Of a stretch of 64,000 nucleotides of DNA, positions 4,871 to 20,521 are shown piece after piece. The translations under genes and the position numbers were made by a program. Position 1 is the stretch's first letter; every line of letters starts with the position of its first letter. The DNA is from Mycolicibacterium sp. HK-90 (GTDB lineage Bacteria; Actinomycetota; Actinomycetes; Mycobacteriales; Mycobacteriaceae): positions 4,898,001-4,962,000 of the forward strand of contig NZ_CP129613.1 in assembly GCF_030486405.1 (NCBI RefSeq), read 5' to 3'. The notes beneath the pieces are model-generated. The model searched no databases and had not been told where the DNA came from. It saw nothing but the letters and a program-made list of their open reading frames with translations.

Positions 4871-5743
4871 GTGAGCAGCGGGAAAACCGAGCGAACAGAA
4901 TCGCGCACCGTCACGTTCCGCGGCGTCGACGACCTGAACCTGGTCGGGGACGAGTGGAACCGGGACGCCCCGACTGCTGCCGACAGACCGACGATCGTGC
5001 TGTTGCACGGCGGTGGCCAGAACCGGTTCTCCTGGAAGAACACCGGCCAGATCCTGGCCGACCGCGGCTGGCACGTGATCGCACTGGACGCGCGTGGCCA
5101 CGGCGACAGCGACCGCTCGCCCAGCGCGAACTATTCGGTGGAAGCGCTGTCCGCCGATGTGCAGCACGTGCTCTATCAGATCGGCCGCCCGGTGGTGCTG
5201 ATCGGCGCCAGTATGGGCGGGCTGACCAGCATCCTGGCCTCCCACGAGGCGGGCCCGGAACTGGTCACCAAGCTGATCCTGGTCGACGTCGTGCCGCGGT
5301 TCGAGAAGAGCGGCAGTGCACGCATCCGCGAGTTCATGTTCACCAACGTGGATGGGTTCGATTCCCTGGAGCAGGCGGCCGAGGCCGTCGCCGGGTACCT
5401 GCCGCACCGCACCAAACCACGCAGCCCCGAGGGGCTGAAGAAGAACCTGCGGCTGCGCGACGGACGCTGGTACTGGCACTGGGATCCGGCCTTCCTCACC
5501 AAACCCGAGGACGATCCGTTCATGCGGGTGGAGAAGCTGGAACAGGCCGCGATGAACCTGACCATCCCGATCCTGCTGATCCGCGGCAAGCTGTCCGATG
5601 TGGTGAGCCCCGAGGGCGTTCAGGACTTCCTGCAGAAGGTGCCTGCCGCCGAGTTCGTCGAGTTGTCGGACGCGGGACACACCGCCGCCGGTGACGACAA
5701 CGACGCGTTCACCGAGGTGGTCGTGGAGTTCGTCGGCCGGTGA
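4871..5743 (+). CDS. Alpha/beta hydrolase
   Basis: A 290-residue alpha/beta hydrolase with a full Ser-His-Asp set: oxyanion loop LLHGGGQNRFSW, nucleophile elbow GASMGG, an acidic residue in the SDVVSPEG loop, and His in DAGHTAAGDDND. The GTG at 4871 is chosen because GAGAGGAG lies at a suitable distance upstream; a GTG 18 nt earlier is in frame but has no such site. The stop overlaps the next gene's GTG by 4 nt, which couples it to the kinase-aminotransferase fusion. Substrate unknown; an esterase or lactonase acting in the same pathway as the fusion is a reasonable guess only. Confidence 0.85.
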   Translation: MSSGKTERTESRTVTFRGVDDLNLVGDEWNRDAPTAADRPTIVLLHGGGQNRFSWKNTGQILADRGWHVIALDARGHGDSDRSPSANYSVEALSADVQHVLYQIGRPVVLIGASMGGLTSILASHEAGPELVTKLILVDVVPRFEKSGSARIREFMFTNVDGFDSLEQAAEAVAGYLPHRTKPRSPEGLKKNLRLRDGRWYWHWDPAFLTKPEDDPFMRVEKLEQAAMNLTIPILLIRGKLSDVVSPEGVQDFLQKVPAAEFVELSDAGHTAAGDDNDAFTEVVVEFVGR

Positions 5744-8652
5744 GCGGCGAGCGCGACACCGTCGGTTTCAACTTCCTGCGCGAGCCCGAACTGCCGGCTC
5801 CTCAGGTCGGCGAAGCACAGGCCGCCGACCTCCTGGCCACCCACTACGGCCTGACCGGCGACGTGAAATCGCTGGGCAGCCAACAGGACAGGAATTTCCT
5901 GGTCGGCGGCGACCCGATCACCGGAGTACTGAAAATCGCCAACCCGGCGTTCAACGAGACCGAGCTGACGGCCCAGGAGTTGGCCGCCGACCTGATCGCC
6001 CAGGCCGAGCCAACGGTGCGGGTCGCCCAGTCGTTGCCGAATCTGCGCGGCGAGAAGCTCACCGCGGTAACAGGTTTGGATCTCGACCAGGCGCATGCCC
6101 GGCTGCTGCGGTATCTGCCCGGCGGCGCCCTGATCGAATTCGGGTACCTCTCGCCTGCCACGGTCGCCGAGCTCGGCGCACTCGCCGGGCGGGTCAGCCG
6201 GGCACTGGCCGGGTTCGACCATCCCGGCCTGGACCGCATCCTGCAATGGGACCTGCGCTACGGCGCCGACGTGGTCAGCCGACTCGCCGATCACGTCGAC
6301 GACGCGGCGGCGCGGTCCCGGCTCCGGGCCGCCGCCGAACAAGCCTGGTCCCGCATCGCACCGCTGGCCGACGCGCTGCCCCGGCAAGCCGTGCACATGG
6401 ACCTCACCGACGCCAACGTGGTGGTCACACGGGATGCCGGCGGTGCGGTGCATCCCGACGGGATCATCGACTTCGGCGACCTGTCCGACAGCTGGGCCGT
6501 GGGCGAACTGGCCATCACGCTGTCCTCGGTGCTGCAGCATCCCGGTGCCGATCCGGCCACTGTGCTGCCCGGTGTCAGGGCCTTCCACGCTATCCGTCCG
6601 CTGAGCCTCGCGGAGGCAGAAGCGTTGTGGCCGTTGCTGGTTCTGCGGACCGCAGTGCTGATCGTCAGCGGAGCGCACCAGAAGAGTTTCGACCCGGACA
6701 ACGACTACCTGACCGAGCAGGCCGACGGCGAATGGCAGATGTTCGAGCGCGCCACCTCGGTGCCGATCGATGTGATGACCGCGCTCATCACCGCCGACCT
6801 CCGCCTGGCCGCACCACCCGCGCCGGTGCGGGTGCGCCCGATGATCACTCCGTCGCCGGCGGTGACGCTGGACCTGTCCGCGACCTCCGATGCCCTGGAC
6901 GGCGCCTTCACCCCCGGCGGCTGGGTCGAACCGGACGTCGAGGACCAATTGGCCAGGGCGGCAATCGAAGCCGGTGCGGCGTTGGCGGTGACCCGGTTCG
7001 GACAACCGCGGATCTCGCTCGCCCCGGCGCTGAGCCAGGACGAGCCTGAAGTGGTCGCGACCGGAATCACCATGTGGCCGGCCGATCGGGTGGAGTTCGC
7101 CGCCCCGTTCGACGGTGAGGTGATTGACCGGACTCCGGATTCCGTGACCTTCCGTGGCGCCGAGTACGAGGTGACGCTCTCTGGAATCACCACGGCCGAC
7201 AGCTTTTTGGGTATCGCCGAACCTGGCCGTCGGGTGCATGTGGCACTGCGCCCCGTCGGATCACCCCCGGCCCCAGAACTGACCACGCCCGCGTTGGCGC
7301 CGGGATGGCTGGCGTACAGCCGTGACCCGGGGCCGCTGCTCGGATTGCCGGAGTCGGAGGCGCCGGTCGCGGACGCCGATCTCATGATCCGGCGCGACCG
7401 CGCCTTCGCGCCGGTGCAGGAGCACTACTACCGTCGGCCACCGCGCATCGAGCGGGGCTGGCGGCATTTCCTGATGTCCACCAGCGGGCGCTGCTACCTC
7501 GACATGGTCAACAACGTCACGGTGCTGGGCCACGCCCATCCTCGAGTCGCGGCGGCCGCGGATCGTCAGCTGCGCAAGCTGAACACCAACTCGCGGTTCA
7601 ACTATGCGTCCGTCGTCGAGTTCAGCGAACGCCTCGCCGGACTCCTGCCCGATCCGCTGGACACGGTGTTCCTGGTCAACTCCGGATCGGAGGCCAGCGA
7701 TCTGGCCCTGCGGTTGGCGATCGCGGCGGCCGGCCGACCTGATGTGGTGGCCATGCGCGAGGCCTACCACGGTTGGACCTACGGCACCGACGCCGTGTCG
7801 ACCTCCACCGCCGACAACCCGAATGCGCTTACCACCCGCCCGGATTGGGTGCACACCGTCGAATCTCCCAACAGTTTCCGCGGCAAGTACCGCGGTGACG
7901 AGGTCGGCCGCTACGCCGTGGACGCGGTAACCCAGATCGAGGGGTTGATCGCCGCCGGTCGCGCTCCGGCGGCGTTCATCTGCGAGACGGTGTACGGCAA
8001 CGCCGGCGGCATGGCGCTGCCCGACGACTACCTCCGGCAGATCTACGCCACGGTCCGCGGGGCCGGCGGCTACGCCGTCGCCGACGAGGTGCAGGTGGGG
8101 TACGGCCGGCTCGGCGAATGGTTCTGGGGTTTCCATCAGCAGGGCGTGGTCCCCGACATCGTGTCGATGGCGAAGTCGGTGGGCAACGGATATCCACTGG
8201 GCGCCGTGGTCACCAGCCGCGAGATCGCCGACGCGTTCCGCAGCCAGGGCTATTTCTTCTCCTCCACCGGTGGCAGCCCGCTCTCGTGTGCGATCGGTAT
8301 GACGGTGCTCGACGTACTGAACGACGAAGGGCTGCAAGCCAACGCGGCCCGCGTCGGCGCCCACCTGAAGACGCGGCTACAAGAACTCGCCGAACGGCAT
8401 CCGATCATCGGCACCGTGCACGGGGTCGGCTTGTATCTCGGCGTCGAGATGATCCGGGACCCACAGACCCTGGAGCCCGCCACCGAGGAGACCGCACTCA
8501 TCTGCGACCGGATGCTCGAGCTCGGGGTGATCATCCAGCCGACCGGCGATCACCAGAACATCCTGAAGACCAAGCCTCCGTTGTGCATCGACGTCGAGGC
8601 GGCCGATTTCTACGTCGACGCCCTGGATCGGGTGCTGACCGAGGGCTGGTGA
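5740..8652 (+). CDS. APH-type kinase fused to class III PLP aminotransferase/phospho-lyase
   Basis: A 970-residue multidomain protein. Residues about 30-330 form an aminoglycoside-phosphotransferase (APH/choline kinase fold) domain with the catalytic loop HMDLTDANVV at about 219 and the metal-binding IDFGD at about 243. Residues about 430-500 (APFDGEVIDRTPDSVTFRG and on) resemble a degenerate peptidase-M23/barrel-sandwich linker. Residues about 540-970 are a class III aminotransferase-fold enzyme with the PLP lysine K812 in SMAKSVGNGYPLG and the acidic DEVQVGYGR upstream. In animals the separate kinase AGPHD1 and phospho-lyases AGXT2L1/L2 phosphorylate hydroxylysine and eliminate phosphate and ammonia from phospho-amines. 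By analogy this fusion could do both steps on one amino-alcohol; the substrate is not visible. It starts with GTGA overlap on the hydrolase. Confidence 0.85.
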   Translation: MSGERDTVGFNFLREPELPAPQVGEAQAADLLATHYGLTGDVKSLGSQQDRNFLVGGDPITGVLKIANPAFNETELTAQELAADLIAQAEPTVRVAQSLPNLRGEKLTAVTGLDLDQAHARLLRYLPGGALIEFGYLSPATVAELGALAGRVSRALAGFDHPGLDRILQWDLRYGADVVSRLADHVDDAAARSRLRAAAEQAWSRIAPLADALPRQAVHMDLTDANVVVTRDAGGAVHPDGIIDFGDLSDSWAVGELAITLSSVLQHPGADPATVLPGVRAFHAIRPLSLAEAEALWPLLVLRTAVLIVSGAHQKSFDPDNDYLTEQADGEWQMFERATSVPIDVMTALITADLRLAAPPAPVRVRPMITPSPAVTLDLSATSDALDGAFTPGGWVEPDVEDQLARAAIEAGAALAVTRFGQPRISLAPALSQDEPEVVATGITMWPADRVEFAAPFDGEVIDRTPDSVTFRGAEYEVTLSGITTADSFLGIAEPGRRVHVALRPVGSPPAPELTTPALAPGWLAYSRDPGPLLGLPESEAPVADADLMIRRDRAFAPVQEHYYRRPPRIERGWRHFLMSTSGRCYLDMVNNVTVLGHAHPRVAAAADRQLRKLNTNSRFNYASVVEFSERLAGLLPDPLDTVFLVNSGSEASDLALRLAIAAAGRPDVVAMREAYHGWTYGTDAVSTSTADNPNALTTRPDWVHTVESPNSFRGKYRGDEVGRYAVDAVTQIEGLIAAGRAPAAFICETVYGNAGGMALPDDYLRQIYATVRGAGGYAVADEVQVGYGRLGEWFWGFHQQGVVPDIVSMAKSVGNGYPLGAVVTSREIADAFRSQGYFFSSTGGSPLSCAIGMTVLDVLNDEGLQANAARVGAHLKTRLQELAERHPIIGTVHGVGLYLGVEMIRDPQTLEPATEETALICDRMLELGVIIQPTGDHQNILKTKPPLCIDVEAADFYVDALDRVLTEGW

Positions 8653-11459
8653 GTGAGGCTGTCGGGCAAGACCCGAAGTTGCCGACGTGAGGTGACTCCG
8701 AGCTTGACGAACACTTTCCGCAGATGCCACTCGACGGTATGCGTGCTGATGAAGAGCTGCTCTGCGATCTTCGGGTTGGTGAGGCCCGCTGCGGCCAGCC
8801 GCGCGATCTGCGCCTCCTGAGCCGTCAGGGAATCGCCGCCGGCAACCGGCTGGTGGACCGTCCGCTCCCCCTTCGCGATCAACTCTCGCGCGGCACGATC
8901 AGCGAACGCCCGGGCACCGAACGTGTCGAACATGTCGTGGGCGATGGTGAGGTGTTCCTTGGCCGCTGACCGGCGTTTCCGACGCCGCAGCCATTCCCCG
9001 TAGCGCAGATGGGCGCGGGCCAGGTGAATCCTGACGCGGGTACGTCCCAGTCGGTCGATCGCCTCACGGTGGTGAGCCTCCGCCTCCCCGTCCTCGGCCA
9101 CCAATGCCTGCGCGCTCGCCAAAGTTCCCAGGGCCCAGTCGGTATCGCACCCCGTCATGCGGTTGGCCAGACGCCGGTAGGCGTCGCGCGCGGCGTCGAC
9201 GTTGCCGATGCGGGTGGCGGCCTCGATCAGTTCGACCAGATACCAGCCGTAAAGTCCGAGGTCCTCGTACTCGGCAGCCTGCTGGGCAGCGGCGAACGCC
9301 TCCTCATAGCGGCCGAGCCCGTTGCAGAGCACAGCAGTCGCATACCGGGCGAGGCCCAGGACCCGGCCTTCGCCGCAGGCCGACGCTGCCTCGGCATGCG
9401 CCTTGAGCGCATCGAGATCGTCCGGATCGCCCCTCCACGCATCCACCGCAAGGGAATGAGAGCGCAGCGGGGAATGGAAGCGAGTGGCCGACGAGGTCGA
9501 ATCACTCTCCGCCAGAACAGCTTCGGCAGCATCGAGCTCCCCCGCCAAGATGTGCACGAGGGCCCGGTAACCCAGTGTCTGCGGAATCAGCGCCACCGCG
9601 TCGGCCGCCCGGACTTGCCGGACCGCCTCCGTGGAGAGCCGGTGCACCAGCGCGTCATCCCACAGTTCGTAGGCCGTGGGCTGCTGAATGATCGGTAGTG
9701 CGGGCACCATCCACCGCGACGCCGAGAACTCGGCATGAAGACGATGTGCGCCCAACGCTTCCAGGGCGACAGGCAGCGCCTCCCCCGCGTCAAGCACACC
9801 GGTGATGCGGCCCGCCATGGCCCGCAACACGGTCCCCACCGCCGTCGAGCCGGCGGGCAGCCGATCGATACCACGACGTGCGGTATCGGCAATCCGCGCC
9901 ACCGCCCCGACGTCTCCCAGGCGGCCGGCATACACCGCCGCGGTAAGAGCTTCGAGATACGTCTCGCAGCTCACCTCGGCGTCAAGGTCTTCGAATTCGA
10001 CTGCTGCGTCGAGCATTCGCGATGCGATGTCACGCAACGAGGCCGCGGTGGCGTCGCCGCCGCGGCGCTTGGCGAACTCCATCTGGGTGGACAGTCGCGC
10101 GGCCCGCGCCCTTTGCAGCGCGGTCATCGCTGCGAGCCCGGCCATGGCGAGCAACTCTTCGGCATCGGAAAAGGCACCAGCGTCGAGCTTGCCCCGGGCT
10201 GCCGCGAGGGCGCGGTCGCAGCGAAGCTCGGGGTCCGATGTCAGGATGGCGGCCCGTTCCAGGAATGTCGCTGCCACGGCCACCCCCATCTTGGCGTGCG
10301 CATGTCCGGCGGCCGCTTCGAGTTGTGCGGCCACCTCATCGTCGGGCCATGTCGCGGCGTTGGCGATGTGCCAGACCCGGCGGTCGGGATCGGCCTCGGC
10401 ATCGGTGGCTTCGGCCAGTGCGCGGTGTATCTCGCGTCGCACGGGGGGATCGGCAGCGTGGTAGGCGGCCGACCGGGCGAGTGGGTGCAGAAACCGCACA
10501 TCGGAATCGATCTCGACCACCTGGGCGGCCACCGCAGGGGCCAGCATGTCGGCGGCGATCCCCAGGTTGTCCGCGACGCGCGCCAACGTCGCGGTATCGC
10601 CGACCGGCTCGGCCGCGGCGGCCAGGAGCAACTGCCGGGTCGGTTCGGGCAACGTGCGGATCAGCTCGACATAGCCCAGCTCGATCCGCGTGATCGCCGA
10701 GTGGGTGGTGGTGCCACGGCGAAGCGCCCCGGCAAGTTCTGCGGCAGCCCGATCGTGTGGAAGCGAAACCAATGCAAGCGGATTGCCCCCGCTCTCGGCG
10801 ATGATCCGATCGCTGACGCGCGGGTCGAGACGACCCACCATCACCGTGCCCAACAGATCGCGCGCGTGCTCATCCGACAATGGGCCGACCGTCAGTTCGG
10901 GCAAGCCGCTGAGCGCATCTGGCCCGGCGCCGCGGGTGGCGAAGACCAGTCCCGCCGGTTCGGTCGTCAACCCTCTCGCCACGGAGGCCAGAACCTCCAG
11001 CGAGGCGCGATCCAGCCACTGCGCGTCGTCGACGACGCAGAGCAGCGGTTGATCCCCACATGCGGCGGTCAGCAAGCCGAGAAATGCCGATTTCACGAGG
11101 TTTTCGGGTGGGGGCGCACCGGCTTTGAGCCCCAGCGCCACCCTCAGGGCCTCGCGTTCGGCATCCGGCAACCCGTCGAGGTGGCCGAGCAGCGGTCGGC
11201 ACAGTTGCTGAAGGCCGGCGAAGTCGAGATCCATGTCGGATGGCACTCCGGACAGCTGTGTCGTTCGGTGGTGCTCGGCCCGCTCGAGTAGGTAGTTCAG
11301 CAGTTCGGTCTTCCCGACACCGGCCTCCCCGCGCAACACCAGCACCCGGCTGCCGCTCGGCACTCCCGCGACCAGATCCTCCACAAGCCGGCATTCGGCA
11401 TCGCGACCGAGCAGGACGGGTGTTCCCGCGTCCTGAAAAGGTTTCCGCCGCATACACAT
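8610..11459 (-). CDS. LAL-type LuxR regulator (giant ATPase), copy 1
   Basis: A regulator of about 949 residues of the large ATP-binding LuxR (LAL/MalT-like) class. Its N-terminal AAA/STAND ATPase has Walker A GEAGVGKTELL and Walker B LLCVVDDAQWLD. A long helical TPR-like region follows, and a C-terminal LuxR helix-turn-helix (LTAQEAQIARLAAAGLTNPKIAEQLF, then HTVEWHLRKVF). The start is taken at the first ATG after the preceding gene ends; no strong ribosome site decides between 11459 and 11453. The reading frame runs about 20 residues beyond the HTH and overlaps the 3' end of the convergent kinase-aminotransferase gene by 43 bp. It is third of three paralogues on this strand and probably the last gene of the operon. 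Confidence 0.88.
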   Translation of the reverse strand: MCMRRKPFQDAGTPVLLGRDAECRLVEDLVAGVPSGSRVLVLRGEAGVGKTELLNYLLERAEHHRTTQLSGVPSDMDLDFAGLQQLCRPLLGHLDGLPDAEREALRVALGLKAGAPPPENLVKSAFLGLLTAACGDQPLLCVVDDAQWLDRASLEVLASVARGLTTEPAGLVFATRGAGPDALSGLPELTVGPLSDEHARDLLGTVMVGRLDPRVSDRIIAESGGNPLALVSLPHDRAAAELAGALRRGTTTHSAITRIELGYVELIRTLPEPTRQLLLAAAAEPVGDTATLARVADNLGIAADMLAPAVAAQVVEIDSDVRFLHPLARSAAYHAADPPVRREIHRALAEATDAEADPDRRVWHIANAATWPDDEVAAQLEAAAGHAHAKMGVAVAATFLERAAILTSDPELRCDRALAAARGKLDAGAFSDAEELLAMAGLAAMTALQRARAARLSTQMEFAKRRGGDATAASLRDIASRMLDAAVEFEDLDAEVSCETYLEALTAAVYAGRLGDVGAVARIADTARRGIDRLPAGSTAVGTVLRAMAGRITGVLDAGEALPVALEALGAHRLHAEFSASRWMVPALPIIQQPTAYELWDDALVHRLSTEAVRQVRAADAVALIPQTLGYRALVHILAGELDAAEAVLAESDSTSSATRFHSPLRSHSLAVDAWRGDPDDLDALKAHAEAASACGEGRVLGLARYATAVLCNGLGRYEEAFAAAQQAAEYEDLGLYGWYLVELIEAATRIGNVDAARDAYRRLANRMTGCDTDWALGTLASAQALVAEDGEAEAHHREAIDRLGRTRVRIHLARAHLRYGEWLRRRKRRSAAKEHLTIAHDMFDTFGARAFADRAARELIAKGERTVHQPVAGGDSLTAQEAQIARLAAAGLTNPKIAEQLFISTHTVEWHLRKVFVKLGVTSRRQLRVLPDSLTHQPSVSTRSRAST

Positions 11460-11493
11460 ATAGACCGGTCGGCAACCGAGATTGTGACAGCGG

Positions 11494-14325
11494 CTAGCTC
11501 TCCAGTTTCGCCGCGATATCCCGGCGGGATCGGATACCGAACTTGCTGAACACTTTTCGCAGATGCCACTCGACAGTGTGGGCACTGATGAACAGTTGCG
11601 CTCCGATCTCGGAGTTGGTCAGTCCGTCGGCGGCGAGGCGGGCGATCTGCATCTCCTGTGTGGTGAGCGACACGGCGTCGGGCACCCGCCGCCCGGCCGT
11701 CGCTCCGTTCGACGGTGCCACCCCCGCGGCGGCCAGTTCCCGACGCGCTCGCTCGGCGAACCCGGCCGCGCCCATGTCGTTCAGCAGGGTGTAGGCCCGG
11801 CCGAGGAGTTGCCGCGCCTCGCCCCGGTGTTGTTCGCGCCGCAGCCATTCGCCGTAGACCAAATAGGCTCGCGCAGTGAGCATTCGGACGTCCGTACGCT
11901 CAAGAAGCTCGATCGCAGTCCGATACAGTTGTTCGGCGACGGCACTGTCTGCCACCAGCGCGCCGACGTAGGCCGCCGTGCCGCGGGCCCAGTCGGTCTC
12001 GCTCACCGCAGCCATGTCTTCGATGCGCCGCACCGCCTCGGCGGCGTCCGCGGGCACACCCGACCTTGCTGCCGCCTCGACCAGTTCGACCATCGACCAG
12101 GTCGAGAGTCCGAGCTCCCGTGGATATGCCGATCCGCGTCGAGCGGCCGCAAGCGCCTCGTCGTACCGGCCAAGCCCGTTGTACAGCACGGCTGCCGCCC
12201 ACTCGGTGGCGGTCAGGGTCTTACCCTCGCCACGCAGCAGCGGATCGGCGGTGATCAGGTCGATGGCTCGCCGCGTACGGGTCTCGTCGCCGCGCCAGGG
12301 TTCCACCACCAGCGCACCGTAGTGCGCGAAGAAGCTGCTTCCGGTGACCTCGCCCAGCGTTGTGGCCTGGGCCACCAGCGCGTCCGACGCGGCCAGGTCA
12401 CCGGCATACACCCGGTTCGACAACCGCAACAGCAGCGCCGACGGCAGGACGGCAAGCGCACCGGCGTCCACCGCCAGCTCGACCAGCCTGGCCGAAAGCG
12501 CCGACCAGGAGTCGAATTCCCAAGTGTTGTGCGCCAATCGGCACGCCAAGGGAAGCCAGCCCAACCCTTCCTCTGGAGACAACCCTCCCGTTCGATAGGC
12601 CGCCAGGGCACGGTGCACCAGCGGAGCTCCCGCCGCGTAGCCCACAACCGTCATCCGGGAAACTCCCTCAAGGAGCAGATCTGAGCAAGCCGGGTCCGTG
12701 GGTCGGCGCATCGCCAGGACCGCAGCCGCCACCTGCTCCAGGCCGACTCCGTCGGACAATCGGCCGGCCGTGAGAGCGGCGTAGAAGGCGTCGCGGTAGG
12801 TCTCGGTGGCCAGCGCGGGGTCAAGTACCTGAAGCTGTTCGGCGGCGCTGAGCAGTGCGGGCAGGCCCGCGCTCGCACTGCGGAACGAGAAGAGGCTGCG
12901 CCCGCGCACGAGTTCGGCGAGAGCGCGCTCACGCTTGGTCAACGACAGCGTCCGAATACCGTCGAGCAGGTCGAGAGCGTCGCCGAACTCGCCTGCCTCG
13001 CTCTTGGCCTGAGCCGCCGCGAGTGAACGGGAGCCACGGCGACCCGGATCAGGGGTCAGTTCCGCGGCCCGGCCGAGAAATGCCGCCGCTGCGGCGGCCC
13101 CGCCGCGGGCGCGGGCCCGGGCAGCGGCCAGCTCAAGGCCGGCAGCCACGTCCTCATCGGGCCGGGCTGCGGCACTTGCCAAATGCCAGGTACGTCGATC
13201 GGGGTCGTGTTCGGGATCGGTCGCCTCTGCCAAAGCCCGGTGCACCTGCCGGCGCTGCGATGTCGTCGCCGAACGATAGGCCGCCGACCGCACCAGCGGA
13301 TGCCGGAACCGGACCATGGCGCCGACGGTGAGTAGATCGGCCGCCTGCGCTTCGGCGTCGGCGGTGACGATGTCGATGTCCAATTCGACGGCCGCGCGCC
13401 GCAACAACGCCACATCCCCCACCGGATCAGCGGCGGCGAGCAGCACCAGATGCTGCGCCTCGGAGGACAACGAACGAAGACGACGCAGAAATCCCTTCTC
13501 GAGCTGGCCGGACAGCGGCTGGTCGTCGAGCCGGCCGGTCCCCATCGCCAACTGCGCGGCGCTCAGCGTGCGTGGAAGTTCAAGGAGTGCAAGCGGATTC
13601 CCGCGGGATTCGGCCAGAATGCGGTCGAGGACCCGATTCTCGATGCAACCCGGGCAGCCCCATGCCAACAGCGTCCGGGCGTCGTGATCGCCCAGTCCCT
13701 CGATCTGCAGAGCAGACAAGTCCTTCAGCGCATCGCCGTCTGCCGGCTCGCGTACCGCGAACAGCAGCACCACCCGCTCGGCCAGCAGCCGACGCCCGAC
13801 GAACGACAGGGTCTGGGCAGAGATCTGGTCCAACCACTGCGCGTCGTCGATCAGACACACCACGGGTTGCTGCGAGGCCACATCCGCCAGCAGGCTCAGG
13901 ACGGCGAGGCCGACGAGGAAGCGATCCGGAGGAGTGCCCGCACTGAGCCCGAACGCGGTTTCCAGCGCCGACCTTTGCGGAACAGGCAACCGGTCGAAGT
14001 GTTTTCGGAGCGGCGCACACAGTCGGTGCAGCCCGCCGAACGCCAGTTCGGCCTCCGCCTCGATTCCGGCGACCCGCACCACCCGGCACCCGGTGGCGTG
14101 GATGCTCACGTAGTCGAGTAGCGCGGTCTTTCCGATACCGGCCTCACCCCGCAGCACCAGGGCCGCGCTGTGACCGCCCGCCGCGCCGGCGATGATCTCG
14201 TCGAGGGTCGCGCATTCCCGGTGACGCCCGAGTAGGCGTCCCCGAGCGCCGTCGACCCGCTCCATGTCCTCGACGCGGGGCGTTTCGGCCGTCCAAGCCG
14301 GCCAACCTGCGGGCTCGGCACTCAT
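11494..14325 (-). CDS. LAL-type LuxR regulator (giant ATPase), copy 2
   Basis: A 943-residue LAL regulator. It has Walker A GEAGIGKTALLDY at about residue 60, Walker B VVCLIDDAQWLD at about 155, a sensor-like NPLALLELPR segment, a long alpha-helical repeat region, and a C-terminal LuxR HTH (LTTQEMQIARLAADGLTNSEIGAQLF). Its ATG overlaps the stop of the ECF sigma gene as ATGA, so sigma factor and regulator are translationally coupled. Copy 1 follows after 34 nt. In the family the ATPase/TPR parts sense an inducer and the HTH activates a target promoter; nothing here identifies the inducer. Confidence 0.9.
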   Translation of the reverse strand: MSAEPAGWPAWTAETPRVEDMERVDGARGRLLGRHRECATLDEIIAGAAGGHSAALVLRGEAGIGKTALLDYVSIHATGCRVVRVAGIEAEAELAFGGLHRLCAPLRKHFDRLPVPQRSALETAFGLSAGTPPDRFLVGLAVLSLLADVASQQPVVCLIDDAQWLDQISAQTLSFVGRRLLAERVVLLFAVREPADGDALKDLSALQIEGLGDHDARTLLAWGCPGCIENRVLDRILAESRGNPLALLELPRTLSAAQLAMGTGRLDDQPLSGQLEKGFLRRLRSLSSEAQHLVLLAAADPVGDVALLRRAAVELDIDIVTADAEAQAADLLTVGAMVRFRHPLVRSAAYRSATTSQRRQVHRALAEATDPEHDPDRRTWHLASAAARPDEDVAAGLELAAARARARGGAAAAAAFLGRAAELTPDPGRRGSRSLAAAQAKSEAGEFGDALDLLDGIRTLSLTKRERALAELVRGRSLFSFRSASAGLPALLSAAEQLQVLDPALATETYRDAFYAALTAGRLSDGVGLEQVAAAVLAMRRPTDPACSDLLLEGVSRMTVVGYAAGAPLVHRALAAYRTGGLSPEEGLGWLPLACRLAHNTWEFDSWSALSARLVELAVDAGALAVLPSALLLRLSNRVYAGDLAASDALVAQATTLGEVTGSSFFAHYGALVVEPWRGDETRTRRAIDLITADPLLRGEGKTLTATEWAAAVLYNGLGRYDEALAAARRGSAYPRELGLSTWSMVELVEAAARSGVPADAAEAVRRIEDMAAVSETDWARGTAAYVGALVADSAVAEQLYRTAIELLERTDVRMLTARAYLVYGEWLRREQHRGEARQLLGRAYTLLNDMGAAGFAERARRELAAAGVAPSNGATAGRRVPDAVSLTTQEMQIARLAADGLTNSEIGAQLFISAHTVEWHLRKVFSKFGIRSRRDIAAKLES

Positions 14326-14954
14326 GCGGCTCGTGAATCGGCGCTGTCGCCGGCGAGTAGCCGCTCCAGATCTCCCCGATCGCCGGTGCGAGCCGCCTCC
14401 AGGAACGCGGTGGCGAGACGACGATGCGCGGCGATCAAGACCGAAGCGGCGCGGTCACCGGTGTCGAGGCGGGCCTGGGCCCGGCGAACCAGTTGCCGCG
14501 CATTCGCGACACTGGTCCGCAGCAGCGCAGCGATGTAGGCGTAGGCGTATTCGAATCCCTTGCGCAGGACGTAGGCAGCCAGCTCGGCAGGCGTCAGCCT
14601 CGCCATGAGCAGGGCCAGCATCTCCTCGACCACCGCGGCCTGTTCGGTACGTGACAAGGGTTCGTCCTCGGCGGCGTCGGGCAGATAATCCAGCGGCGAC
14701 GCCGTCGGCGCCTCGTGGCGGTAACGGGCCGATTGGATGACGTTGATCGCGAGGTTGGTCGTTGTGGTGGTCAGGAAGGCGGCCGGATTCTCCACGGCCG
14801 CGCGGTCGGCGCGCTGCCACCGCAGCCATGCCTCTTGGACCAGATCTTCGGCACCACAGGTCTCGCCGGTTACCCGGTAGGCGATACCCAACAACCGCGG
14901 GCGGTGGGTGAGAAAGATGTCGAGAGCCAGGTCCAGGTCATCCGGTGTCGACAT
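14322..14954 (-). CDS. ECF sigma factor, SigJ/ECF41-like with shortened C-terminus
   Basis: A 210-residue sigma-70 family ECF factor. Region 2 spans LGIAYRVTGETCGAEDLVQEAWLRW at about 21-45. Region 4 spans LTPAELAAYVLRKGFEYAYAYIAALLRTSVANARQLVRRAQARL, the form typical of the SigI/SigJ (ECF41) group. In that group a SnoaL-like domain of about 100 residues normally follows. Here only its first helix is recognisable (FLEAARTGDRGDLERLLAGD) before the stop. ATG 14954 is chosen for its GGTGGAGGC ribosome site; longer frames upstream run into the preceding gene's terminator region. No separate anti-sigma gene is adjacent. The stop overlaps LAL copy 2 (ATGA). Confidence 0.88.
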   Translation of the reverse strand: MSTPDDLDLALDIFLTHRPRLLGIAYRVTGETCGAEDLVQEAWLRWQRADRAAVENPAAFLTTTTTNLAINVIQSARYRHEAPTASPLDYLPDAAEDEPLSRTEQAAVVEEMLALLMARLTPAELAAYVLRKGFEYAYAYIAALLRTSVANARQLVRRAQARLDTGDRAASVLIAAHRRLATAFLEAARTGDRGDLERLLAGDSADSRAA

Positions 14955-15058
14955 GCCTCCACCCTGGACCCCGGCTGCCCTTCGTCGCGCCACGGAACTC
15001 CGTGGTCGGGTCCGTAGGTTCGGGCACCACGGACTACGCGGTCCGCCGGGTGCCGGGG

Positions 15059-17830
15059 CTAGCCGGAGGTGGCCAGCGCGCCCGGCAGTTCGCGGCGGGA
15101 GCCGATGCCGAGTTTCGTGTACACCTTGCGCAGGTGCCACTCCACGGTGTGCGGGCTGAGGAACAGCTCCGCGCCGATCTTCGGATTGGTCATCCCGGTG
15201 GCCGCCAACGCGGCGATCTGCGCCTCCTGCGGGGTCAGACTGGTCGTCGGCCCGGTTTCCCGGGTCCGCACGTGCTCACCGGTGGCCGTCAGTTCGCGCC
15301 GCGCCCGCTCGGCGAACGCCGTGGCCCCCATGCCGTCGAACATCTCGTGCGCGGTGCGGAGCTGCTCCCGCGCCAGCACCCGACGGCGGTTCCGGCGCAG
15401 CCATTCGCCATACAGCAGATGGGTGCGGGCCACCTCGACGACCACGCGGTCGCGGGCAAGTTCCTCGATCGCCGTGCGGTACAGCGCGTCCGCCTCGTCA
15501 CCGTCGGCGAAAAGGGCCCGGCTGCGCGCGCTGACGCCCCGGGCCCAGCCGGAATCGGCGGCGCGGGTCAGTTCGACCAGACGATCCAGCGACGTCCGTG
15601 CCGTCTCGAGCTCACCGCACCGCACCGCGGCCTCGACATGCTCGACCAACGACAGCCCGGTGAAGTTGTAGCCGTCGTGTTCGACGCCGGCCCGGGCCAC
15701 CGCGAGTGCCTCGTCGTACCGGGCCAGGCCGTTGTACAGCACGCCCTGGACATAGCCGGCGACCCCTAGCAGCGATACCTCGCCGTGCTGGGCAGCCCGG
15801 GCCTTGGCCTCCGCGATCGGGCCGGCAGCGGCCTCCTCCTCACCCCGCCAAGCGGCCAGCACCAGCGAGGCGTAGGCGTGCGGGGTCTGTCCGGTGGCGG
15901 CGGAGATCGCGTCGGCCTCGTCGATCATGCGGGCCGCCGTGGCGAAGTCGCCATGGTGGATGTGGACACCGCCCAGGTAGATCAGCGCCGGCGGCAGCAC
16001 GCCGAGCGCGCCGATGTCGCGGGCCAGACGCACCGCACGGGTGGCGAAGGTGTCCCACGCGGGCAGATCCCAGCCGTAGTGGATGAACGATTCCAGCGCG
16101 ACGGGCACCAGCAGCAGCCATCGCATCGTCGCCTCGCGGCTGCGCAGTTCCTCCTGGGCAAAGGGTTCGAAGGCCCGGCGCAACGCGGGCACACCGGTCT
16201 CGTAGCCGTCGGCCAACAGGGTGGCAACGCCGTCGAGCAGCAGGTCCGCGGCCTCGGAGTTCGACGGCGAAGCGCCGGAGGCCCGGGCAGCGACTGCCGC
16301 GGCCTTGGCACCGGCCGGGCCGTGGACCCGGCCGGCGAAGACAGTCGCGCTGATCGCCTCCAGATAGGTCTCGCGGGCCAGTGGCGACCCGGCGGCTGTG
16401 AACTGTGCCGCGGCGTCGAGCAGCAACGGCGCCGCTTCGTCGCTACGACTGCGGCCGAACAGGATTCGGGCCCGCAGACGCGCCAGCCGGGCCTGGTCCA
16501 ACGGGTCGAGCGGGCACAGGCTGGCCAGGGTGGCCAGCTCGGTGGCGCGATCCGGGGCGGCGGCCGAGAAATGTGCCTCGGCGGCCGCGAGCGCCCGTCG
16601 TCCGCGCTGCCAGACATCCGGGGTCAGCTCGGTGGCACGTTCCAGCAGAACCGCTTCGGCCGCCATCCCGCCGCGCTGGCGCGCCCGGCCCGCCGCGTGG
16701 TCCAAGCCTGCCGCGACCTCTTCGTCGGGCCCGTCGGCCGCTTCCGCCGCGTGCCACGCGCAGCGGTCGGGATCGAGCACCGGGTCGGTGACGGCCGCCA
16801 AGGCGCGGTGCACCGCGCGGCGCTCATCGGGGTCGGCCTGGCCGTACACCGCTGAGCGCACCAGCGGGTGACGGAACCGCACCGACTCGCCGAATTCGAT
16901 CAGCCCGGCCGCCTTGGCCGGTGCGGCGTCGGGAACGATGTCGAGCGCCTCGGCCGCGCGCAGCAGCAGTCGGGCCTCCCCCACGGGCTCGGCGGCCGCG
17001 ATCAGCAGCAGCGTCCGGGTCGGCCCCGGCAGCAGGTTTATCCGGTCGGCGAAGTCCTGTTCGATGCGGCTCGACACCGATTGCCGGCTGGCCGCCGGGC
17101 CCGCCTCGACGCCATAGGCCAGCTCCGCGGCGCTGCGACCGCGGTAGAGCTCGAGCAGCGCGAGCGGATTGCCGGAGGTCTCGGCCACCAGCCGGTCCCG
17201 CACCGGCTCCTCCAGCCGGCCGTCGACCGCGGCCTCCAACAGTTCGCCGGCCGCCACGGGGTCGAGTCCACCGAGCCGCAACTCGGGCAGTTCCTTGAGC
17301 ACCGCGTGGCCCTCCGGGTCGCGGACCGCGAAGACCATCGCGACGGCCTCGGCCAACAGCCGGCGTGCCACGAACTCCAGGGTCAGCACCGAAACCTGAT
17401 CCAGCCACTGGGCGTCGTCGACGATGACCAGCACCGGCCGGGTCTCCGAGGCGCGGGTGAGCAGGGTCAACACCGCCAGACCGACCAGGAAGCGGTCCGG
17501 CGGGTCGCCGACGGCCAACCCGAAGGCGACCCGGAGCGCATCGCGTTGGGGCACGGGCAACGAATCCAGCGCGCCGAGGAATGGAGCGCACAGCTGGTGT
17601 AGGCCGGCATAGGCGAGCTCCATGTCCGCCTCGATCCCGCGGGCGGTGGTCACGGTCATCCCCGAGGCCTGGGCCGCGGTGTAGTCCAACAACACCGATT
17701 TCCCGATACCGGCCTCGCCCCGGATCACCGAGACCGCGGATTCACCACGGCGCAAACCGCTGAGCAGATCGGCCAATCGAGTGCACTCGCGTTGCCTGCC
17801 AACCAGGTTGGGCAACGGACTGGCACTCAT
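15059..17830 (-). CDS. LAL-type LuxR regulator (giant ATPase), copy 3
   Basis: A 923-residue LAL regulator with Walker A GEAGIGKSVLLDY at about residue 40, Walker B PVLVIVDDAQWLD, helical repeats, and C-terminal LuxR HTH (LTPQEAQIAALAATGMTNPKIGAELFLSP). Its start is preceded by CAGGAGCC on the minus strand. It is the first gene of the minus-strand regulatory block: 104 nt separate it from the sigma gene, which overlaps copy 2, which is 34 nt from copy 1. It diverges from the flavoprotein gene at 17961, which makes that gene a candidate target. Confidence 0.9.
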   Translation of the reverse strand: MSASPLPNLVGRQRECTRLADLLSGLRRGESAVSVIRGEAGIGKSVLLDYTAAQASGMTVTTARGIEADMELAYAGLHQLCAPFLGALDSLPVPQRDALRVAFGLAVGDPPDRFLVGLAVLTLLTRASETRPVLVIVDDAQWLDQVSVLTLEFVARRLLAEAVAMVFAVRDPEGHAVLKELPELRLGGLDPVAAGELLEAAVDGRLEEPVRDRLVAETSGNPLALLELYRGRSAAELAYGVEAGPAASRQSVSSRIEQDFADRINLLPGPTRTLLLIAAAEPVGEARLLLRAAEALDIVPDAAPAKAAGLIEFGESVRFRHPLVRSAVYGQADPDERRAVHRALAAVTDPVLDPDRCAWHAAEAADGPDEEVAAGLDHAAGRARQRGGMAAEAVLLERATELTPDVWQRGRRALAAAEAHFSAAAPDRATELATLASLCPLDPLDQARLARLRARILFGRSRSDEAAPLLLDAAAQFTAAGSPLARETYLEAISATVFAGRVHGPAGAKAAAVAARASGASPSNSEAADLLLDGVATLLADGYETGVPALRRAFEPFAQEELRSREATMRWLLLVPVALESFIHYGWDLPAWDTFATRAVRLARDIGALGVLPPALIYLGGVHIHHGDFATAARMIDEADAISAATGQTPHAYASLVLAAWRGEEEAAAGPIAEAKARAAQHGEVSLLGVAGYVQGVLYNGLARYDEALAVARAGVEHDGYNFTGLSLVEHVEAAVRCGELETARTSLDRLVELTRAADSGWARGVSARSRALFADGDEADALYRTAIEELARDRVVVEVARTHLLYGEWLRRNRRRVLAREQLRTAHEMFDGMGATAFAERARRELTATGEHVRTRETGPTTSLTPQEAQIAALAATGMTNPKIGAELFLSPHTVEWHLRKVYTKLGIGSRRELPGALATSG

Positions 17831-17923
17831 GAATCGGCTCCTGGCAGAACTGGCCGGGCACCGATGTGTACCTGGCTGGCGAGAAATCTACCGGGCTTGT
17901 CACAAACCGCGACTCCGCCCGGT

Positions 17924-17940
17924 CGGTATTTATAACCGGC
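17924..17940 (+). promoter_or_regulatory. Probable promoter/operator between LAL copy 3 and flavoprotein
   Basis: The 130-bp divergent gap contains an AT-rich island TATTTATAAC (17927-17936) in otherwise GC-rich DNA, about 25 nt before the flavoprotein ATG, suitable as a -10 element. It is flanked by CGGT and ACCG arms (CGGT-N7-ACCG), a small inverted repeat that could bind a dimeric regulator such as the adjacent LuxR proteins. Assignment is by composition and position only. Confidence 0.4.
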
Positions 17941-17960
17941 CGTCTGTACCAGGAGATTCC

Positions 17961-19625
17961 ATGTCACCCCGCGAACATCAGCTGGCCACGTCTGTCCTCG
18001 TGGTGGGGGTCGGCGGGGCCGGTCTGCGGTCGGCCATCGAACTCGCCGAGTCAGGGGTGGCGGTGACGGTGGTGGGTAAGCACATCCCCGATGACGACCA
18101 CACCGGTCTGACCCTCACCGGGATCAACGCGGCGCTGGACGCAGCCGACGGCTGGGAGCAGCACGCGGCTGACACGCTGATGTCGAGCTGCCTGCTGGCC
18201 GATCCACGCACGGTGCAGCGCGTCGCCCAGGGGGCCGCGCAAGGCATCCACGACCTGGAGCGCTTCGGCATGCGCTTCGAAAGACACGACGCCGGCCGGA
18301 TCACCGGGGCCCATCCGTACCGGCGTAGGGCCGACGCCGGCGAGGTGCAGCGCGTCCTGCGCGAACACGCGGTGCGCCTCGGGATCCCGGTCCTCTCGAC
18401 GTTCTACGTCACCCAGATCCTGGTGAACGACGGAGCGGTCTTCGGGGCCTACGGTTTCGATCTGGTCGACGGCGCGCGTTACCTGGTGCACGCCGACGCG
18501 GTGATCCTGGCGACGGGCGGACATACCCGGCTGTGGCGGCGGACGTCGGCCCGCCGGGACGAGAACACCGGCGACTCGTTCCGGCTCGCCGCCGAGGCGG
18601 GGGCCCGGTTGCGGGACGCCGAGCTGGTGCAGTTTCGGCCGTTCGGCTTGCTCACACCCGAGAACGCGGCGGGGACACTGATCAGCGATTCGGTGTGCGA
18701 CGAGGGCGGAGTGCTGCTGAACACCGCGGGCGAGCGGTTCATGTCGCGGTACGACCCCGAGCGGATGGAACGTGCCGGTCGCGACCGGGTCGCGATGGCG
18801 TCCTACGCCGAGATCCAGGCGGGGCGCGGCACCCGGGCCGGCGGGGTCTGGCTGGACCTGTCGCACCTGGCCGCCGAGCGGGTCGTGACGCGGCTGCCGC
18901 ACGTCTACCAGACCGTGCTCGACGTTCAGGGACGGGACATCACCCGGGACCCGGTCGAGGTGGCCCCGACCGCGCACTACTCATTGGGCGGGGTCGCGGT
19001 ACGTCCACAAGATCACGGCACCGAGGTCGACGGGCTGTTTGTCTCCGGCGAAGCCACCACCGGGCTGCACGGAGCGGGCCCACTGGACGGGAACTCCTTG
19101 ATCGCGGTGATGGTCTACGGCCGGCTGACCGGGCAGGCCGCGGCGGACTACTCGGCACGGCTCACCGCCCAGCGTCGCTCACTGGCGGCGATCCGGGCCG
19201 CCGAGGCGCAGGTCGACCGGCTGCTGACCGCCGATGGCAGTGAGAACATCCGGGGGTTGCAGCGCGCGGTGCGCAACCTGATGACCGAGCACGCCGGCGT
19301 GGTGCGCCACGAGGCGGGCCTGCTCGACGGATTGGCGGAACTGGAGAAAATCGAATCCCGGATGGCCGACGTGGGGGTACACACCGATATCAGCGGTTTC
19401 GCGGATCTGGCACACGCCTTCGATCTGAGGTCCGCGGTGCTGTCCGCGCGGGCGACGCTCGAGTGCGCGCTGGAACGACGCGAGACACGGGGCTGCCACA
19501 TCCGTTCTGACTATCCGGATCTCGACCCAGCACTACAGGTGAACCTGGCGTGGTCCCCACAGGCCAGCATACGGCACGAGCCCGTCGCGCCTATCCCCAC
19601 CGACCTCGCCGAGTTGATGCGATAG
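17961..19625 (+). CDS. FAD-dependent oxidoreductase, fumarate reductase/SdhA-like
   Basis: A 554-residue flavoprotein of the succinate dehydrogenase/fumarate reductase/L-aspartate oxidase family. The N-terminal dinucleotide-binding fold reads VLVVGVGGAGLRSAIELAESG at about residues 13-33, followed by the family substrate-side elements TAHYSLGGVAV (about 340) and the FAD-binding C-terminal GEATTGLHGAGPLDGNSL. The C-terminal helical domain is present (LMTEHAGVVRHEAGLLDGL). ATG 17961 is chosen because AGGAGA precedes it by 5 nt. No Fe-S or membrane-anchor subunit is adjacent, so it is a stand-alone soluble oxidase or reductase rather than part of a respiratory complex; L-aspartate oxidase is an alternative. 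Confidence 0.8.
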   Translation: MSPREHQLATSVLVVGVGGAGLRSAIELAESGVAVTVVGKHIPDDDHTGLTLTGINAALDAADGWEQHAADTLMSSCLLADPRTVQRVAQGAAQGIHDLERFGMRFERHDAGRITGAHPYRRRADAGEVQRVLREHAVRLGIPVLSTFYVTQILVNDGAVFGAYGFDLVDGARYLVHADAVILATGGHTRLWRRTSARRDENTGDSFRLAAEAGARLRDAELVQFRPFGLLTPENAAGTLISDSVCDEGGVLLNTAGERFMSRYDPERMERAGRDRVAMASYAEIQAGRGTRAGGVWLDLSHLAAERVVTRLPHVYQTVLDVQGRDITRDPVEVAPTAHYSLGGVAVRPQDHGTEVDGLFVSGEATTGLHGAGPLDGNSLIAVMVYGRLTGQAAADYSARLTAQRRSLAAIRAAEAQVDRLLTADGSENIRGLQRAVRNLMTEHAGVVRHEAGLLDGLAELEKIESRMADVGVHTDISGFADLAHAFDLRSAVLSARATLECALERRETRGCHIRSDYPDLDPALQVNLAWSPQASIRHEPVAPIPTDLAELMR

Positions 19626-19628
19626 CGG

Positions 19629-19799
19629 TCAGCGGGTCGGTTCGCCCTGCTCGGCCTCGGCCAGCCGCTGATGCAGGCGCTCGCGAATGTCCTGCGGGGT
19701 GTAGGCATTTCGGCGACGCTGATCACGCGCCACCATGACTCCGCCCGCCACGACCCCGGCGACACCGGCCAGCCCGACCCACTTCCAGATGCTACGCAT
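19629..19799 (-). CDS. Small single-pass membrane protein (56 aa)
   Basis: A short gene of 56 codons filling the gap between the flavoprotein and the cysteine-hydrolase-like gene. It begins MRSIWKWVGLAGVAGVVAGG, a clear transmembrane helix preceded by Arg/Lys, followed by a charged tail (ARDQRRRN, then DIRERLHQRLAEAEQGEPTR) predicted to be an amphipathic helix. The stop at 19629 is 3 nt from the convergent flavoprotein stop. Small proteins of this shape are common next to mycobacterial housekeeping genes; function unknown. Confidence 0.6.
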   Translation of the reverse strand: MRSIWKWVGLAGVAGVVAGGVMVARDQRRRNAYTPQDIRERLHQRLAEAEQGEPTR

Positions 19800-19825
19800 G
19801 CTCTGAGTGTGCCTAAGCTGCGGAC

Positions 19826-20521
19826 GTGAAAGCGAACACGGTGGCTTTGACCAAGGCGCTTGAGGAGACCCGCACCGGTGACATCTGGCTGTTTCGCGGG
19901 GGCTCCGGGCCGGACCGGGCGATCCAGACCCTGACCAACAGCCCCGTCAACCATGTCGGCATGACAGTGGCAATCGACGACCTGCCGCCGCTGATCTGGC
20001 ACGCCGAGCTCGGCGACAAGCTGCTCGACATGTGGACCGGCACCAACCATCGCGGGGTGCAGCTGAATGACGCCCGCCAGGTCGTCGAACGCTGGTCCCA
20101 CAGCTATGGGCAGCGCTGCTGGTTGCGTCAGCTCACCCCGTTCGCGTCGCGTGAGCAGGAGGACGAGCTGCTCAAGGTGATCGCCCGGATGAACGGCACC
20201 GCGTTCCCCACCACGGCCCGGCTGACCGGTCGCTGGCTGCGGGGGCGGATACCTGTCGTCAGCGACTTCACCCGTGGAATTCCCTTCGTCCACAAGAAGG
20301 TTCGGGAGTCAGCCGAACGCAAGAAGGCGCAGAATCGCCAGGTCGGGTTGGAGACCGCCTACTGCGCCGAGACCGTGGCCATCACCTATGAGCAGATGGG
20401 CCTGCTGAGCACCGAGAAGCACTACAACTGGTTCGATCCCGGCTCGTTCTGGAGCGGTGACGAGTTGCCCCTGGCCGCCGGTTACGCGCTGGGCGACGAG
20501 ATCTCGGTGCTCATCGACTAG
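19826..20521 (+). CDS. Permuted papain-fold (NlpC/P60-like) hydrolase
   Basis: A 231-residue protein with the signature of the circularly permuted NlpC/P60 (YiiX/YaeF-LRAT) superfamily: a His in NSPVNHVGMTV at about residue 41, a polar residue in WHAELGDK at about 60, and the nucleophile Cys in LETAYCAETVA at about 183. Such enzymes cleave amide or ester bonds in peptides or lipids. The GTG start lies 7 nt after a TAAGCT hexamer (19814-19819), fitting a leaderless transcript. There is no signal peptide, so it is probably cytoplasmic. It converges on the acetyltransferase gene with a few bases of overlap. Confidence 0.7.
   Translation: MKANTVALTKALEETRTGDIWLFRGGSGPDRAIQTLTNSPVNHVGMTVAIDDLPPLIWHAELGDKLLDMWTGTNHRGVQLNDARQVVERWSHSYGQRCWLRQLTPFASREQEDELLKVIARMNGTAFPTTARLTGRWLRGRIPVVSDFTRGIPFVHKKVRESAERKKAQNRQVGLETAYCAETVAITYEQMGLLSTEKHYNWFDPGSFWSGDELPLAAGYALGDEISVLID

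Follow-up and report, generated by a model that had tools for sequence, protein, structure and literature searches.

We propose that a cluster of regulatory genes in Mycolicibacterium sp. HK-90 works as a three-step relay, in which a large ATPase regulator would switch on a sigma factor gene and the sigma factor would in turn serve an enzyme gene and a further ATPase regulator. The cluster lies in a stretch of 64,000 nucleotides, hereafter the window, which covers bases 4898001–4962000 of a single-contig genome of 6.49 Mb. As read directly from the sequence, its minus strand carries four genes in the order of transcription. The first encodes copy 3 of a large ATP-binding regulator of the LuxR family (LAL3; 15059..17830, 923 aa), a signal transduction ATPase with numerous domains (STAND) that ends in a LuxR-type helix-turn-helix (HTH), and stands at the head of the proposed relay. 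It is followed by the gene of an extracytoplasmic function (ECF) sigma factor, P0001 (14322..14954, 210 aa), which derives from the ECF41 group, has no SnoaL domain and ends in Ala-Ala, and then by LAL2 (11494..14325, 943 aa) and LAL1 (8610..11453, 947 aa from a conserved ATG). A SdhA/FrdA/NadB-like flavoprotein, the proposed output enzyme, is encoded divergently on the plus strand (17961..19625, 554 aa).

The relay, to which we give moderate confidence, runs from LAL3 to the sigma factor and LAL2, and from there to the flavoprotein and LAL1. LAL3 would act as the sensor and, once bound to a conserved box in the 104 nt that follow its own gene, would turn on the sigma gene together with LAL2. 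Since the fused SnoaL inhibitor has been lost, the brake-free sigma factor should be active once it is made, and its level would be set through LAL-driven transcription, perhaps also through ClpXP acting on the Ala-Ala end. It would then read two promoters of the form TGTCACA-N16-GGTC, one in front of the divergent flavoprotein gene and one in front of LAL1.

The regulator genes and the short sigma factor

All three copies are LALs, with an N-terminal P-loop ATPase and a C-terminal GerE/LuxR HTH. Each is intact, with an AAA_16 match at the N-terminus, a GerE/LuxR match at the C-terminus, the Walker A motif GEAGxGK[ST] and, as read by eye, a Walker-B-like stretch with DD at its end; in cross-matches the copies are about 42–47% identical to one another. 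LAL3 and the sigma gene are separated by 104 nt, the sigma stop overlaps the start of LAL2 by 4 nt (ATGA), and LAL2 is followed after 34 nt by a first ATG and after 40 nt by the conserved ATG of LAL1. The first ATG, six bases upstream of the conserved one, gives a LAL1 of 949 aa and is probably the start used in a preliminary description of this DNA, whose account of three LALs and an ECF sigma factor on one strand, with their sizes and gaps (104 nt, the 4-nt overlap and 34 nt), agrees with our gene calls and domain matches. The entire arrangement is present again in the five nearest named records (L054–L058), where LAL3 is 92–93.5% identical, and the nearest sigma records, at 70–85% identity, come from two Mycolicibacterium peregrinum strains, M. 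setense and two other Mycobacterium species. Chance is therefore no explanation of the layout of the window, and these relatives would place the organism, probably, in the fortuitum complex of mycobacteria. In ten further loci with a SnoaL-less sigma factor (L059–L068), LAL3 orthologues are 66–79% identical.

The best NCBIfam models of the window sigma factor are SigX4 (TIGR02957), which we take to stand for ECF41, SigJ and SigI. The protein carries the sigma-2/sigma-4 sequence of the ECF41 group, its match to TIGR02957 stops at model position 193 of 281, and it terminates after 210 residues, just short of the SnoaL motif DG[GN]G; eleven more short sigma factors of the same genus stop within a few residues of that point. 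PMC8999054 counts both SigJ and SigI among the ECF41 group.

We compared two sets of loci. The first comprises 98 loci (the window, 17 loci of the genus and 80 named loci, with L034–L036 excluded as duplicates of L055, L056 and L058), of which 39 have a sigma factor without SnoaL and 59 one with SnoaL. The second comes from 394 genomes of the class, including that of the window (G000), which gave 68 further matches, three of them already in the first set and 65 new. A search of the three forward frames, over 1.8 kb from the gene start of the 39 short-sigma loci, brought up no SnoaL remnant at E ≤ 0.01, and a frameshift as the origin of the short sigma factor was rejected. W[LIVF][PL][ED]P, a linker motif, occurs in 58/59 SnoaL sigma factors and in 0/20 of the clade of the window; all five members of a second clade of short mycobacterial sigma factors have it, as do 3/14 of the other SnoaL-less proteins. 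The domain appears to have been lost long ago in the clade of the window and recently in the second mycobacterial clade.

Experimental truncation of ECF41 proteins is described in PMC3426412, passages of which report activity raised about 20-fold in B. licheniformis (204 aa) and 120-fold in R. sphaeroides (206 aa), reduced activity on cutting to 192 residues and none at 167 or 169. Judged by length, the end of the window sigma factor would be equivalent to the hyperactive truncation sites, and its activity may thus be unrestrained. The preliminary description had noted that ECF factors usually travel with an anti-sigma gene; a missing anti-sigma gene is normal for ECF41 because the inhibitor is a fused domain (PMC3426412, in the passages cited), and the unusual feature is the loss of the fused SnoaL domain.

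Promoter motifs and the conserved box

The published ECF41 signature is TGTCACA-n16-CGTC (PMC3426412). Motif search found two related sites in the window, TGTCACA-N16-GGTC, at 17898..17924 (plus strand) before the flavoprotein gene and at 11463..11489 (minus strand) before LAL1, against 0.06 expected for the pattern searched. Both have the exact −35 element and spacer length of ECF41, with GGTC as the −10 element, and both are conserved: the six window-like loci (the window and five close relatives) each hold the two sites, although the spacers before LAL1 have diverged. When the spacer was varied from 5 to 35 nt across the 98 loci, 233 of the 299 matches to TGTCACA-Nk-GGTC fell at k=16, none at k=15 and 4 at k=17. 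Where sites were listed for four genomes, inspection by eye shows no GGTC-type site other than these two in every genome, and a few others in two. In G000, the CGGTC form with a 14–17 nt spacer occurs four times (once in the reversed control), close to the base-count estimate of 3; it is where the two sites stand, their exact spacing and their conservation that carry the promoter case. In all six loci, the tenth base past GGTC is the A that opens the conserved LAL1 start codon, and LAL1 mRNA is possibly leaderless.

Recognition of the two sites by the sigma factor is thus predicted, and the flavoprotein, already named in the preliminary description as the nearest target, is a probable one. Where the flavoprotein gene was found, the motif lies within 350 nt upstream of it in 12/17 SnoaL-less and 21/26 SnoaL loci. 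From these counts, the step from sigma factor to flavoprotein may be the older link. A scripted count found the motif before 1/57 LAL genes in SnoaL-less and 4/14 in SnoaL loci; it leaves out LAL1 in the six window-like loci, since the LAL1 frame there extends upstream; these six were read separately. In four loci with a full-length sigma factor (L037, L039, L043 and L044), a LAL gene is preceded by an ECF41-type motif, so a LAL can stand below as well as above the sigma factor.

The 104 nt that separate LAL3 from the sigma gene contain the sequence CTACGGACCCGACCACGGAGTTCCGTGGCGCG, in which the box lies. At 14986..15017 (minus strand), half-sites CTACGGAC and CCACGGAG stand 12 nt apart and are followed by TTCCGTGGCGCG; we propose that this element is a LAL operator. 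An inverted half-site, the 9-mer AGTCCGTGG, lies upstream at 15027..15035 (minus strand); by itself it is no commoner in the window than chance predicts (21 occurrences at one mismatch or fewer, against 24.9). Related blocks precede short sigma genes in Nocardioides, Actinomadura, Isoptericola, Kribbella, Streptomyces and other genera. Two or more half-sites C[CT]ACGNA[CG] occur near the sigma start in 24/39 SnoaL-less loci, as compared to 0/59 SnoaL loci and 39/2019 background stretches, and 17 of 32 same-strand intervals between half-sites measure 11 or 12 nt. The second set gave 9/16 and 2/49, respectively. A weight matrix trained on seven blocks from these loci scores 19 or more solely before the sigma gene, in 16/39 SnoaL-less and 0/59 SnoaL loci. 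At lower scores it is noise (above 13 in ten loci, 8 true matches versus 0 to 17 in column-shuffled controls), and the argument for the box therefore rests on the half-site count and on a strict pattern considered below. The second mycobacterial clade (L040–L042, L046 and L047) has no half-sites near the sigma gene and an SDR-like (short-chain dehydrogenase/reductase) gene between LAL and sigma; in L042 a strict box stands behind the LAL that precedes this gene.

The preliminary description had read the cluster as one nine-kilobase operon. In such a reading, all four regulator genes would be transcribed from one promoter before LAL3, with the internal elements inert or minor, which would give co-expression and no cascade. 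The shared strand, the short gaps and the ATGA overlap agree with it, as do terminator-like sites at chance level within 8300–18100 of the window (3 found, 3.1 expected). However, both the −35 and the −10 element of the LAL1 motif are retained though the spacer diverges, and several genera share the box that precedes the sigma gene; some read-through from LAL3 may nevertheless occur. We therefore regard a single operon as unlikely; with a box before the sigma gene and an ECF41-type motif before LAL1, three transcription units are probably the better description. The further suggestion that the sigma factor and LAL2 act on the same promoters finds no sequence support, the sigma motif and the LAL-linked box standing at different genes. 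No sigma-70-type promoter match was found within 8300–18100, and this result, with the chance-level terminators, leads us to make no claim on the LAL3 promoter.

In the whole of G000, an exact match to a looser form of the box occurs in two places: at the window box and in front of a nitroreductase-like gene (named by eye), some 0.9 kb ahead of a second LAL gene. A one-mismatch site lies directly after a third LAL. The strict form, GACYACGNNNTTYCMAGGG, matches 127 times, in 82 of the 198 genomes searched, and its reversal does not match at all. LALs of this subfamily (accepted up to E = 1e-100, with no more than four candidates scored per genome) are present, among the matches listed, in at least 128 of the 198 genomes. 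They occur in at least 81 of the 82 genomes with a box as compared to at least 47 of the 116 without (Fisher 1.6e-20, relatedness ignored). When the 127 boxes were compared with 125 of the 150 listed LAL matches, at least 64 lay within 5 kb of a LAL; in at least 46 of these cases the box follows the LAL on the same strand, no more than 120 nt past its end. The genus-wide form of the box is thus linked to LAL genes and is probably a LAL operator. One genome (G065) has the box and a LAL3 at 84% identity, but the gene that follows is NmrA-like where the sigma gene would stand; the 20 kb covered there contain no match to the sigma factor.

The box might also be read by another factor, an activator or a second sigma factor, with LALs as its frequent co-targets or neighbours. 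In favour of this account, which we consider about as improbable as the single operon, 63 of the 127 strict boxes have no LAL within 5 kb among the matches compared, nor do 15 of 30 sampled box loci within 1.5 kb (the other 15 do). It accords less well with the presence of a LAL of this subfamily in at least 81 of the 82 box genomes. Moreover, the gene after a LAL-linked box varies (sigma factor, NmrA-like/SDR or nitroreductase-like, by eye), and direct repeats are in keeping with what passages of PMC6099782 report for MalT and propose for TpdR.

Several observations stand beside these. The genes behind the sampled boxes resemble, by eye, NmrA/SDR, nitroreductase, cupin and ECF sigma genes of another kind. 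Such other-kind ECF-like genes follow a strict box in L186, L187, L208, L196 and L197; they adjoin a LAL in L186, L187 and L208, and the proteins of L187 and L208 end in Ala-Ala. In 17831–17960, about 20 bases next to the −35 element of the flavoprotein motif hardly vary among the six window-like loci and may belong to the LAL3 promoter. Twelve Streptomyces loci (L069, L070, L073, L075, L077, L080, L081, L086, L090, L099, L107 and L110) contain 7–11 motifs TGTCACA-N15-17-NGTC in about 20 kb around a full-length ECF41 gene, perhaps a local multi-promoter regulon, in contrast to the single target per ECF41 described in passages of PMC3426412. Elsewhere in G000, TGTCACA-N16-TGTC stands about 1.3 kb ahead of a full-length ECF41-like gene (L179, G000:C1:5109000-5119000), and a further site of the TGTC type (L180, G000:C1:6384000-6394000) recurs, by eye, in four genomes; the −10 base may separate the targets of different sigma factors. 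No Rfam family reached its gathering threshold within 8000–20000 of the window. On the far side of LAL1, 5740–8652 is a single reading frame with APH phosphotransferase and class III aminotransferase domains, which overlaps the 3′ end of LAL1 tail to tail by 43 bases.

Loss of the SnoaL domain and proximity of LAL genes

Sigma factors without SnoaL are found near LAL genes. A LAL lies within about 10 kb in 35/39 SnoaL-less loci of the first set versus 9/59 SnoaL loci, and in 12/16 versus 1/49 in the second (Fisher 5.5e-9, relatedness ignored). The LAL of L263, the one second-set SnoaL locus that has such a gene, is shared with L076 of the first set, and the same LAL adjoins a SnoaL-less sigma factor (L273) on the same contig. 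The sigma–LAL pairing on which the preliminary description had staked its proposal is recurrent: a LAL follows directly on the same strand in 14/39 SnoaL-less loci, with an ATGA or GTGA overlap possible in 7. Eight SnoaL-less loci are without a LAL in about 10 kb (L071, L072, L083, L118, L248, L261, L303 and L308); for L071 only 1 kb of upstream sequence is covered, and L248 has a 564-aa reading frame that is possibly mis-called.

This proximity also allows a protein-level explanation, in which a LAL binds the sigma factor and substitutes for the lost SnoaL brake, and the translational coupling of sigma and LAL2 serves stoichiometry. The directly following LALs, the possible overlaps and the joint occurrence of SnoaL loss and nearby LALs in both sets would suit it. 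In other loci, however, the LAL is upstream, on the opposite strand or more distant, no interaction surface was identified, and the DNA box already provides one explanation for the linkage; we think this explanation improbable. Least credible, and hardly to be entertained, is a decayed and inactive ECF41 remnant: the SnoaL domain and WLPEP linker motif are gone, and ECF41 proteins of 167 or 169 aa, without the whole extension, are dead, but the sigma factor is kept across genera (54–85% identity in L054–L068), both promoter sites are kept in close relatives, and its length is, by the comparison above, near that of active truncations.

The C-terminal Ala-Ala bears on how the sigma level might be set in the relay. 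It is found in 22/39 SnoaL-less sigma factors of the first set and in 0/59 SnoaL sigma factors, 0/70 LALs and 0/43 flavoproteins. Within the clade of the window it ends 15/20 sigma factors, whose tails otherwise differ. AntA, an orphan ECF sigma factor, is degraded by ClpXP via a C-terminal Ala-Ala, as described in passages of PMC7142297, and by analogy the tail is perhaps a ClpXP-like degron in the clade of the window. It is a clade feature at most.

From these patterns we tentatively suggest a wider exchange of sensors, somewhat less assured than the relay itself. An ECF41 sigma factor would have lost its sensor-inhibitor domain more than once, in several lineages of actinomycetes, and STAND ATPases with a box before the sigma gene would have taken over its control. 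The result would be a cascade from LAL to unrestrained sigma factor to an enzyme and a further LAL, with output set by transcription and, in the clade of the window, by tail-directed proteolysis.

A number of observations weigh against the relay and this wider view, besides the boxes that lack a nearby LAL. For the promoters, the −10 element GGTC does not match the published CGTC, and the flavoprotein is not a universal partner of the sigma factor: its gene is present in 17/39 SnoaL-less and 26/59 SnoaL loci of the first set and in 3/16 and 6/49 of the second. For the box, the looser pattern with one mismatch comes near its reversed control (11 versus 9 in G000, 52 versus 32 in four genomes), the strict form was built from LAL-linked sites and the window box fits its first half alone, and at least 47 genomes have a LAL and no strict box. 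For the association with LALs, a tree of the 98 sigma factors contains at least five changes of SnoaL state, hence few independent events, and an independent-pairs sign test on SnoaL loss and LAL had no power (median p 1). One genome, G395, supplies five of the 65 second-set loci, some of them overlapping, and 4/39 and 4/16 SnoaL-less sigma factors in the two sets have no LAL nearby. The Ala-Ala end is found in only 2/14 of the other SnoaL-less sigma factors of the first set, and its enrichment is gone in the second (3/16 SnoaL-less, 4/49 SnoaL).

If the relay and the exchange of sensors are true, an ECF sigma factor could be controlled with neither an anti-sigma factor nor a fused inhibitor, and the short proteins would be natural counterparts of the laboratory ECF41 truncation. 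The box would also provide a candidate DNA element and a target list for many uncharacterised LALs of mycobacteria and other actinomycetes.

Comparison with known systems

The pairing of ECF41 with LALs, or the box, is not described in the titles and abstract openings of the open-access literature searched, and the word "LuxR" is absent from the text of PMC3426412 by word search. The window sigma factor shares with ECF41 proteins (SigJ and SigI of M. tuberculosis, Ecf41Bli and Ecf41Rsp) the sigma-2/sigma-4 lineage and the lack of an anti-sigma gene, and has nearby candidates for two further features that passages of PMC3426412 describe for the group, promoters of the TGTCACA-n16 class and a neighbouring target gene; a full-length relative (L037) matches the SigJ structure 5xe7. 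In contrast to them, it has no SnoaL domain, no WLPEP-type linker in its clade, a −10 of GGTC rather than CGTC, and LAL partners. The same passages give COE genes (carboxymuconolactone decarboxylase, oxidoreductase or epimerase) as the sole ECF41 targets; the neighbour in the window is a SdhA/FrdA-like flavoprotein, an oxidoreductase by family.

AntA of Streptomyces albus (ECF282) is likewise an orphan ECF sigma factor without an anti-sigma gene and with a C-terminal Ala-Ala; according to passages of PMC7142297 and PMC8999054, its target promoters lie in one divergent intergenic region and its transcription is under a LuxR-family regulator. PMC8999054 describes this regulator, FscRI, as a repressor. 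AntA probably belongs to a different ECF group from the window sigma factor, whose best models are SigX4, SigJ and SigI, and the Ala-Ala end is found in 67/71 AntA orthologues (PMC7142297) as compared to 15/20 of the clade of the window, with no enrichment in our second set.

The window LALs resemble known LAL activators, such as MalT, TpdR of Rhodococcus jostii and SARP-LAL, in being large ATPases with a LuxR HTH. Direct-repeat sites have been reported for MalT and proposed for TpdR (passages of PMC6099782), and SARP-LAL acts on another regulator gene (PMC5930380). The window differs from these systems in that the proposed LAL target is a sigma factor gene, and its proposed box differs from the TpdR repeat, TnnAAnnGCGGAnTC.

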